This document shows, piece by piece, positions 2,042 to 10,525 of a stretch of DNA of 64,000 nt (positions within the stretch are counted from its first letter, which is position 1; the number at the start of each line of letters is the position of its first letter). Origin of the DNA: Allochromatium tepidum (GTDB lineage: Bacteria; Pseudomonadota; Gammaproteobacteria; Chromatiales; Chromatiaceae); NCBI RefSeq assembly GCF_018409545.1, contig NZ_AP024563.1:2316001-2380000 (forward strand), read 5' to 3'. Under the pieces are notes generated by a model that saw only the letters and a program-made list of their open reading frames with translations, searched no databases and was not told the origin of the DNA. Both the position numbers and the translations under genes were made by a program.

Positions 2042-2278
2042 TCAGGCCTGGTGCGCGTTGATGTAGTCGATGGCCTGTTGGACCGTGGTGATCTTCTCGG
2101 CGTCTTCGTCCGGAATCTCGGTCTCGAACTCCTCCTCGAGGGCCATGACCAGTTCCACGGTGTCGAGCGAGTCCGCTCCCAGATCGTCGACGAAGGACGC
2201 CTCTGGGGTGACTTCTTCTTCCTTCACGCCCAACTGGTCCACCACTATTTTGCGAACTCGGTCTTCAACGCTGCTCAT
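2042..2278 (-). CDS. acpP: Acyl carrier protein
   Basis: Small acidic carrier of the growing acyl chain. The 78 residues contain the 4'-phosphopantetheine site [18 protein letters not shown], with the modified Ser at about position 37. The start is preceded by GGAG about 6 nt upstream. That Shine-Dalgarno begins immediately after the right end of the inserted element at 2288-2676, so the insertion stops only about 9 nt short of the start codon yet leaves the coding sequence and ribosome site usable. acpP must therefore be expressed from read-through across the element or from a promoter upstream of it (candidate at 2728-2756). Confidence 0.97.
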
Positions 2279-2287
2279 AAGTTTCTC

Positions 2288-2676
2288 CGCGAGAAACCCC
2301 GTCCTTCAGGGCGGGGAGGGATAGCGGCTGCGACCTCGCAGCCATCGAAATTGGTGCGGGCTTTCCACCTGCCGGGCCGTGAGGCTCTGCCCGTAAGGGC
2401 CTGGTGACGGTGCGGCGTCTCACGACGCGACACGCTCCCCTCGCCAATGTGTGCAACCGGCTCCCGCCTCGCGGCGGCGATCGGAACCTTCGGCGTTTTA
2501 CCTTGCGCCTGCATGATCCCGACCTTCCAGGGTCCGGGACTGAGGAAGCATCCCGGAGTGGGTCTTAGCGACCTGTTGCGCACGTAGCCCCTTTCGACCG
2601 TCCTGGTCAGGCGGGTTGAGGCTGGTCAACCCAGCTTGTTCTCACAAGCTCCGGCCTTCAGGCCGGGGTAGTTGAC
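2288..2676 (-). mobile_element. ISC-like mini-element carrying only an omega RNA, no iscB
   Basis: About 390 bp between fabG and acpP has mobile-element structure but no transposase or nuclease gene. Its right end (2288-2326) is identical over 39 bp to the right end behind iscB at 9966-10004, in opposite orientation. It contains the hairpin CCCCGCCCTGAAGGACGGGG and is preceded by a short stem-loop (GGCTGCGA/TCGCAGCC). The left end begins GTCAACTACCCCGGCC at 2676 and folds into a GGCC-TGAA-GGCC hairpin. Both ends resemble subterminal hairpins of IS200/IS605-type elements. I infer a non-autonomous ISC element mobilised in trans. An open frame of 102 codons inside (2275-2583) looks spurious. Confidence 0.75.
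2327..2676 (-). ncRNA. Putative stand-alone omega RNA (HEARO-type)
   Basis: The minus-strand sequence inside the mini-element is rich in strong hairpins: CCCCGGCC-TGAA-GGCCGG at the left end, GCTTGT-GAGA-ACAAGC just after it, and several further GC stems ending just before the right-end repeat. This layout matches omega RNAs that normally sit directly 5' of iscB. In that family the guide is copied from DNA flanking the left end at the RNA's 5' side; here that would be GAGAGGAATCAATCCT (2692-2677), from the fabG-acpP spacer. There is no nuclease gene within the element. Assignment is from structure and shared ends, not a covariance search. Confidence 0.65.
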
Positions 2677-2727
2677 AGGATTGATTCCTCTCGAATGACA
2701 AAAATCGGCCCCACTGGGCCACGGCGT

Positions 2728-8580: not shown

Positions 8581-9948
8581 ATGCGGGCGACCCGAAAAAT
8601 GGCCGTATTCGTACTCGACAAACAGAAACGTCCGCTGATGCCGTGCACGGAGAAACGCGCGCGACTGTTACTGGAGCGCGGACGCGCCGTGGTGGTGCGT
8701 CCGGCCCCGTTCACCATTCGCCTGAAGGATCGGCTCGGCGGAGCGGTTCAACCGCTGCGCCTGAAGCTGGATCCGGGCAGTCGCGTGACCGGGCCGGCCC
8801 TGGTGCGCGAATCCGAGACCTGTGATCCGGACACAGGTGCCGTTGAGCGACTCGAACATGGGCTGTGGTTTGGGGAACTGGCGCATCGCGGCCACCAGAT
8901 CCGGGACGCCCTGACGCTTCGGCGTCAGTACCGGCGCGCCCGGCGCGCTCGCAAGACCCGCTACCGGGCGCCGCGCTTCCTGAACCGCACTCGCCGTGAG
9001 GGCCGGCTGCCGCCGTCGTTACAGCATCGGCTCGACACCACCGTCAACTGGGTACGGCGCCTGTGCCGGATCGCCCCGATCAGCGCCCTCAGTCAAGAAC
9101 TGGTGCGGTTCGACACTCAGGCCATGCAGAACCCGGAGATCCGCGGGGTCGAATACCAACAGGGCGAATTGGCCGGTTACGAAGTGCGTGAATACCTGCT
9201 GGAGAAATGGAACCGCACCTGTGCCTATTGCGGCGCGACGCACGTGCCGCTGGAGATCGAGCACATCATACCCAAGAGCCGGGGCGGCTCGGATCGAATC
9301 TCGAACCTGACGCTTGCCTGCCGCGCCTGCAATCAGCGCAAGGGGAACCGGTCCATCGAGGACTTTCTGCAACGCCAACCGGCGCTCCTGCACCGGATAC
9401 GGACCCAAGCCAAAGCCCCGCTCAGGGATGCCGCCGCCGTCAATGCCACGCGCTGGGCGCTGTTCGCGGCGCTCAAAGCTACGGGTCTGGCGGTCGAAAC
9501 CGGCTCGGGCGGACGCACCAAGTTCAATCGCACGCGCCTGGACATCCCCAAGACCCATGCCCTCGATGCCGCCTGTGTCGGCGCCGTCGATCAGCTACGG
9601 GACTGGAACCGCCCGGTCCTGGCCATCCGCGCCACCGGACGCGGGGCCTACAGCCGCACCCACACATCCGGCAACGGCTTCCCGCGCGGCTATCTCACCC
9701 GTGAAAAGCGCGTCCACGGCTTCCAGACCGGCGATTGGGTGCGCGCCGAGGTGCCCAAAGGCAAGAAGGCCGGCGTGCATGTCGGGCGTGTGGCGGTGCG
9801 CCGAACCGGATCGTTCAACATCCAAACCCAGGGCGGAACCGTCCAGGGGATCTCCTACCGCCATTGCCGTCTCCTTCAGCGTGCCGACGGCTATGGTTAT
9901 TCATTTCAACCCAAACCACAGACGGAGGAAGCGAGACGGGCGGCTTGA
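8581..9948 (+). CDS. iscB: IscB RNA-guided nuclease (RuvC-HNH), no adjacent omega RNA
   Basis: Cas9-ancestor nuclease of ISC elements. The N-terminal PLMP domain reads KQKRPLMPCTEKRARLLL. RuvC-I Asp is in LKLDPGSRVTG, followed by an Arg-rich bridge helix (RRQYRRARRARKTRYRAP). The HNH domain has CAYCGATHVPLEIEHIIP, a C-x2-C zinc knuckle and RACNQRKGN. RuvC-III His/Asp are in THALDAACVGAV. All catalytic residues are present. Starts at 8527, 8581 and 8599 are in frame; the family normally begins near 8599 (MAVFVLDK) and no start has a clear ribosome site. Only 134 bp separate it from the divergent regulator, too little for a 200-400-nt omega RNA, and no left end is visible. Its right end (9966-10004) abuts folK. 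Confidence 0.93.
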   Translation: MRATRKMAVFVLDKQKRPLMPCTEKRARLLLERGRAVVVRPAPFTIRLKDRLGGAVQPLRLKLDPGSRVTGPALVRESETCDPDTGAVERLEHGLWFGELAHRGHQIRDALTLRRQYRRARRARKTRYRAPRFLNRTRREGRLPPSLQHRLDTTVNWVRRLCRIAPISALSQELVRFDTQAMQNPEIRGVEYQQGELAGYEVREYLLEKWNRTCAYCGATHVPLEIEHIIPKSRGGSDRISNLTLACRACNQRKGNRSIEDFLQRQPALLHRIRTQAKAPLRDAAAVNATRWALFAALKATGLAVETGSGGRTKFNRTRLDIPKTHALDAACVGAVDQLRDWNRPVLAIRATGRGAYSRTHTSGNGFPRGYLTREKRVHGFQTGDWVRAEVPKGKKAGVHVGRVAVRRTGSFNIQTQGGTVQGISYRHCRLLQRADGYGYSFQPKPQTEEARRAA

Positions 9949-9965
9949 CGGCGCTACGCGCCGCG

Positions 9966-10004
9966 CGCTATCCCTCCCCGCCCTGAAGGACGGGGTTTCT
10001 CGCG
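9966..10004 (+). repeat. Right end of the ISC element, shared with 2288-2326
   Basis: This 39-bp sequence is identical to the inverted copy beside acpP. It holds the hairpin CCCCGCCCTGAAGGACGGGG and ends TTTCTCGCG two bases before the folK start codon. In both places an unrelated short palindrome directly precedes it, and flanking DNA differs outside it, so it defines the element's right boundary. Confidence 0.85.
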
Positions 10005-10006
10005 CA

Positions 10007-10525
10007 ATGCTGATGAATCGGGAGACGCGCGCCTTCATCGCCATCGGCTCGAACATCGAGCCGGAGCGTCACATCGCGCTGGGTCTGGAGGCGCTGAATG
10101 GGATCGAGTCGACCCGGCTCGGGGCGGTTTCGTCCTGGTATCGCACTCATCCCTGGGGGCTGGAAGCGCAGGCGGAGTTCATCAATCTGGTGGTCGAGGT
10201 TCGGACACGGCTGACGCCCTCAGTGCTACTGGACGCGACCCAGAGGATCGAGACGCGGCTCGGGCGGGTGCGCGCTCAGGTCAATGGGCCGCGCACGCTG
10301 GATCTCGACATCCTGCTGTATGGCGAACGGATCGAGGACACAGCGGAGCTACGGCTGCCGCATCCGGGGTTGCTGCTACGTGATTTTATGCTGATTCCCC
10401 TGGTGGAGATCGCGCCCGAGATCGTGCATCCCGAGCGCGGACGTCCGATCGCCGGGCTGACCGACGAGATCCTTTACCGGCAAATCATCGAGCGGATTCC
10501 GGATCGCGATCAGGTTCGCGGATAG
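10007..10525 (+). CDS. folK: HPPK (folate synthesis pyrophosphokinase)
   Basis: 2-amino-4-hydroxy-6-hydroxymethyldihydropteridine pyrophosphokinase, a cytosolic folate step. The 172 residues include FIAIGSNIEPERHI, the Mg/ATP motif PRTLDLDILLYG, and LPHPGLLLRDFMLIPLVEIAPE. The start lies two bases from the ISC right end; either ATG 10007 or 10013 could be used and neither has a visible Shine-Dalgarno, since the upstream bases are transposon end. Expression probably depends on read-through from iscB. The usual pcnB/panBC neighbours are absent. It overlaps convergent batD by 16 bp. Confidence 0.93.
   Translation: MLMNRETRAFIAIGSNIEPERHIALGLEALNGIESTRLGAVSSWYRTHPWGLEAQAEFINLVVEVRTRLTPSVLLDATQRIETRLGRVRAQVNGPRTLDLDILLYGERIEDTAELRLPHPGLLLRDFMLIPLVEIAPEIVHPERGRPIAGLTDEILYRQIIERIPDRDQVRG

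Follow-up and report, generated by a model that had tools for sequence, protein, structure and literature searches.

Omega RNAs are generally viewed as attachments of their nuclease gene, and HEARO elements have been described as inserting at ATGA or GTGA; an Allochromatium IscB presumably uses ATGA as its TAM. Stand-alone omega RNAs were reportedly noted in Ktedonobacter by Altae-Tran and co-workers in 2021, but we know of no Shine-Dalgarno (SD)-bearing end or start-codon position described for them. If this background on ATGA insertion and TAM holds, the target motif of the element analyzed here is known, and an SD-bearing stand-alone class is the new part. The element shares with the HEARO/omega RNA of IscB (RF02033) a whole-model covariance match, covarying pairs and a putative guide position 5' of the scaffold, but it is a mini-element without downstream iscB that ends in an SD and a host start codon, and any function of its RNA would be in trans. 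Compared with IscB-bearing ISC/IS200-IS605 elements, it has the same sub-terminal hairpins, ATGA-adjacent insertion without target duplication and 39-bp right end, but lacks tnpA and iscB and has its right end rebuilt with an SD. MITE/PATE-type derivatives of the IS605 family are likewise short and multi-copy, keep both ends and move in trans; unlike them, the mini-element has retained a guide RNA and brings a ribosome-binding site (RBS) to start codons. With the Ktedonobacter RNAs it has in common that no nuclease gene is adjacent. In one survey, RF02033 matched 65% of IscB 5' regions, and tnpA lay nearby in few (PMC9755519). Our literature search, the reach of which ended before the core work on stand-alone omega RNAs and on the target sites of ISC elements, returned no report of such elements.

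The window analyzed is a 64,000-nt stretch of the Allochromatium tepidum genome (NZ_AP024563.1, positions 2,316,001 to 2,380,000; Table 1). An initial annotation made from the sequence had proposed a stand-alone omega RNA in the fabG-acpP spacer, to be checked with the covariance model. Indeed, HEARO (RF02033) matched 2676-2429 on the minus strand over model positions 1-211 with 100.2 bits (E 2e-19), above the gathering score of 83 bits. Downstream of the RNA lies acpP, not iscB, and the RNA is therefore classed as stand-alone rather than as an iscB locus. As had been claimed, no protein gene is attached; neither tnpA nor any other protein gene was found within the mini-element. An ORF reading through the element at 2275-2583 (-) was not taken as a gene, because the copies vary by 1-2 nt indels. 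The sigma-70 pattern scan of 2200-2900 found no promoter.

Table 1 Features of the mini-element upstream of acpP and of the neighboring iscB element (positions in the window)
Feature	Position	Strand	Basis or remark
Complete mini-element	2279..2676	-	398 bp; aligned copies and exact empty site in six congeners
Omega (HEARO) RNA	2429..2676	-	RF02033, 100.2 bits; compensatory changes across 35 stand-alone copies
Left-end hairpin CCCCGGCCTGAAGGCCGGAG, also first omega RNA stem	2649..2668	-	Sequence and Rfam structure line
16-nt left flank GAGAGGAATCAATCCT, putative guide position, with displaced native acpP RBS	2677..2692	-	Sequence; empty congeners
88-nt omega RNA segment, mosaic	2478..2565	-	Alignment
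Non-coding spacer, omega RNA to right end	2327..2428	-	Aligned copies
Right-end block common with iscB element	2288..2326	-	Hairpin CCCCGCCCTGAAGGACGGGG at 2297-2316
SD hairpin GUUUCUC-GCG-GAGAAAC	2281..2297	-	Fold of isolated 25-mers
SD core GGAGAA	2283-2288	-	4 nt before acpP ATG
Target motif ATGA, acpP start codon plus A	2275..2278	-	acpP confirmed as PP-binding
5'-truncated iscB element	8594..10012	+	Full iscB (ATG 8599, stop codon 9948); right end present, omega RNA and left end missing

The ends and the insertion site define the element more closely. The 39-bp block at 2288-2326 recurs exactly, in inverted orientation, as the right end of the iscB element at 9966-10004 (7639 bp between the arms), in agreement with the identical right end that had been noted 7.6 kb away, and sub-terminal hairpins are present at both ends of the mini-element (2649-2668 and 2297-2316). 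The proposed insert is real, but its length of about 390 bp and its end at 2288 have to be revised. The genome's 14 stand-alone copies can be aligned from GTCAACTACCCC through GTTTCTCGCGGAGGAACTG, followed by ATGA, and because they are conserved right up to ATGA, the boundary was placed at 2279, abutting the acpP ATG. This boundary is also the joint of the empty site in congeners: six congeneric genomes have a fabG-acpP spacer without the insert, joined exactly where predicted, with the native RBS region (GAGGAATCAATCCT in the version of this genome) running straight into ATGAGCAGC. The insertion at acpP was thus precise and without target duplication, placing the mini-element between the gene's own RBS and its start codon. 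Hairpin ends, shared right end and empty spacer bear out the assignment to the iscB/IS605 kind. Several other insertion sites are likewise empty in one or more congeners. One site is occupied in both G000 and G001 (L014/L093); the two elements there are 91% alike, no closer than other copies, and this ordinary similarity would fit common descent as well as independent insertion.

At its right end, the mini-element runs past 2288 into an SD sequence and then the acpP ATG(A). The SD was present at the right end of 43 of 46 stand-alone copies versus none of 39 iscB-bearing copies (p 5e-21), and it may keep the interrupted gene translated. Such an end would be a simple rule for transposon entry into the leaders of essential genes. 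In folds of isolated 25-mers, the SD can be paired in a 7-bp hairpin, which does not form when the longer acpP leader is folded to minimum energy. This pairing, the sense orientation of the element within the leader and the existence of a second family with a different SD-bearing end would also suit co-option by the host, either as a cis-acting 5'-leader, in which the SD hairpin would make a riboregulator of acpP, or as a repressor guided by the RNA and acting with IscB at the promoter. We consider co-option improbable, for the copies lie upstream of unrelated genes (acpP, surE, fliL, hcp, rph and others), close relatives lack an insertion at the acpP site and at several further ones, the resident IscB matches the RRXRR and HNH families across their full profiles, and the guide matches its own flank and not a separate promoter.

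The RNA does stand alone, as the initial annotation had proposed, but it is one of 14 stand-alone copies and belongs to a family found across several genera. As a whole, the interpretation given in that annotation is partly supported, and the multi-copy family, the SD supplied at the start codon and the truncation of the neighboring iscB element are additions to it. The genome contains 18 HEARO matches over the cut-off, 14 of them stand-alone, and four full-length IscB genes, so a nuclease from elsewhere is available. The omega RNA is hence the sole cargo of a mini-element with 14 copies versus four iscB genes in one genome, and 10-23 HEARO matches versus one or two full iscB genes were counted in other genera: ten versus one in T. 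sibirica, fifteen versus one in a Chromatium MAG and twenty-three versus two in Ectothiorhodospira magna. With such an excess of copies over iscB, the use of guide RNAs in trans by IscB becomes directly testable in natural sets with many guides. In a scan of the genome collection, the SD-bearing right end was found in 52 stretches, none with iscB attached, spread across several genera of Chromatiaceae and Ectothiorhodospiraceae; the stretches came from Allochromatium, Thiorhodospira, Halochromatium, Ectothiorhodospira, MAGs labelled Thiorhodococcus, Chromatium and Competibacteraceae, and others. The scan pattern included ATGA and is therefore uninformative on target choice. The SD-bearing end in E. 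magna has a different sequence and represents a second family. As side observations, two micro-elements of about 47 bp (L042, ~C1:2559015; L043, ~C2:114924) have left and right hairpins fused into one and keep the SD and ATG, and a stand-alone omega RNA of a different subtype (L086, G001:C1:1591480-1591736, 124 bits) has the same SD-bearing right end as the mini-elements.

It is highly unlikely that the stand-alone copies are independently decayed remnants of iscB elements rather than a mobile family. Decayed and truncated copies do exist, but the stand-alone copies share their architecture, their non-coding spacer and an SD-bearing right end found in no iscB copy, their insertion sites are unrelated and several are empty in relatives, and repeated identical deletions would be needed to yield this common architecture.

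The omega RNA itself appears to be structurally maintained. When 35 stand-alone omega RNAs were placed on the Rfam structure, 16 pairs were changed on both sides in 61 such cells, versus 10.5 expected in shuffles that do not preserve relatedness among the copies (none of 500 reached the observed count), and at most 9 in slid versions. Such conservation of structure could also mean that the copies descended recently from structured sources, or that gene conversion took place. Indeed, the omega RNA of the acpP copy is a mosaic, with an 88-nt segment that is shared without a single change with the genome's iscB-borne omega RNAs and differs from the sister mini-elements. The mini-element is short, multi-copy and polymorphic in insertion and has ends in common with a larger relative, as a MITE does. 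It might accordingly be an ordinary MITE-like deletion derivative moved in trans, for which the hairpin ends alone matter and the omega RNA is a functionless passenger; the SD would then have been selected since translation would otherwise be lost on insertion 5' of a start codon. This explanation fits the many persisting copies in which most of the omega RNA is gone and just 47-160 bp with the SD-bearing right end are left, and conversion, to which the mosaic copies point, could alone keep the RNAs similar. Nevertheless, we regard a functionless RNA as unlikely, because near-full-length copies retain a scored and covarying omega RNA. Moreover, the two genomes that have the SD end and lack iscB (G041 and G045) contain truncated copies only, with zero HEARO matches, whereas several genomes rich in stand-alone omega RNAs have at least one full iscB; an exception is a MAG (G044) with a HEARO match of 75 bits and no clear iscB.

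ATGA directly follows all 35 of 35 iscB-type right ends, and both the stand-alone and the iscB-bearing class insert 5' of ATGA, which is often a start codon. A codon-usage score classed 19 of 35 stand-alone sites as gene starts versus 114 of 1397 ATGA (8.2%) in a genome sample (p 2e-12); among iscB-bearing sites, 15 of 33 were so classed. Against an intergenic-only null, in which 77 of 246 tolerated ATGA are start sites (expected share ~31%), start codons are only modestly in excess (p 0.004 at stand-alone and 0.06 at iscB-bearing sites). A first start-codon classifier was dropped as too strict for a GC-rich genome and replaced by the codon-usage score with the same control. Genes directly 3' of stand-alone copies include acpP, surE, fliL, hcp (prismane family) and rph, and inspection of translations alone adds pheS, argS, atpE and others. 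One stand-alone copy (L010) appears by inspection to lie inside a response-regulator gene.

On balance, we think it probable that the locus is a non-autonomous mini-element of ISC/IS200-IS605 type that is moved in trans, whose omega RNA is usable by IscB made elsewhere and whose SD preserves translation. As inferred from the sequences, a Y1 transposase acting in trans would insert the element 5' of ATGA, often at a start codon and without target duplication. From the host promoter at acpP, transcription would then run through the native RBS and 5'-UTR, which would serve as guide, and on through the omega RNA scaffold and the acpP message; the flank at 2677..2692, which sits directly 5' of ATG in the empty congeners, is assigned as the putative guide from the known layout of IscB systems. 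It is plausible that this RNA loads IscB made from other loci. The element starts with GTCA and the empty site reads ATGA, and the IscB complex would cut a re-formed empty site (guide, then ATGA) and spare the occupied one (guide, then GTCA), thereby favoring retention of the element. This retention step is modelled on the TnpB/IscB homing that Meers and co-workers reportedly described in 2023. The TAMs accepted by OrufIscB are of the NTAAA/NWRRN kind (PMC13180657); ATGA seems similar to these, and GTCA does not. The built-in SD would maintain acpP translation, so that insertion before an essential gene would be tolerated. The account in its full form, namely that a mini-transposon family inserts between host RBS and start codon, directs a host-promoter-driven guide against its own empty site, is kept by IscB encoded elsewhere and lets essential genes survive through its SD, is offered tentatively, with a chance that we put slightly below even.

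Y1 transposases are present elsewhere in the genome in IS605-type units; no transposase with an ATGA target was identified. Two loci (L154, C1:132919-133400; L155, C1:2258790-2259300) carry an IS605-type tnpA, at C1:132996 and C1:2258888, respectively, together with a divergent neighboring gene and an end hairpin near-identical to that of the mini-element, followed by GGGTAA, not ATGA. The same GC hairpin also occurs in pairs 1481 bp apart (C1:1055345/1056826, C1:2551033/2552514 and C2:61703/63184), probably marking another IS with similar ends.

The neighboring iscB element precedes folK (HPPK domain), having inserted 5' of its ATGA at 10013. Over 1424 bp the element shows 100% identity with a complete copy at C1:742318, the homology beginning just 5 bp before the ATG, and an Rfam search in sensitive mode found no omega RNA 5' of iscB at 8599. 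The window therefore contains an iscB copy and a mini-element, each without its partner. At 9973-10094, HgcC and other Rfam families gave weak matches, which were attributed to chance, being below gathering scores and overlapping the right-end hairpin. In addition, a second, diverged iscB type (48-56% identity) was observed at L125 (G004:C18) and several loci of G011, where the HEARO matches mostly lack the GTCA start.
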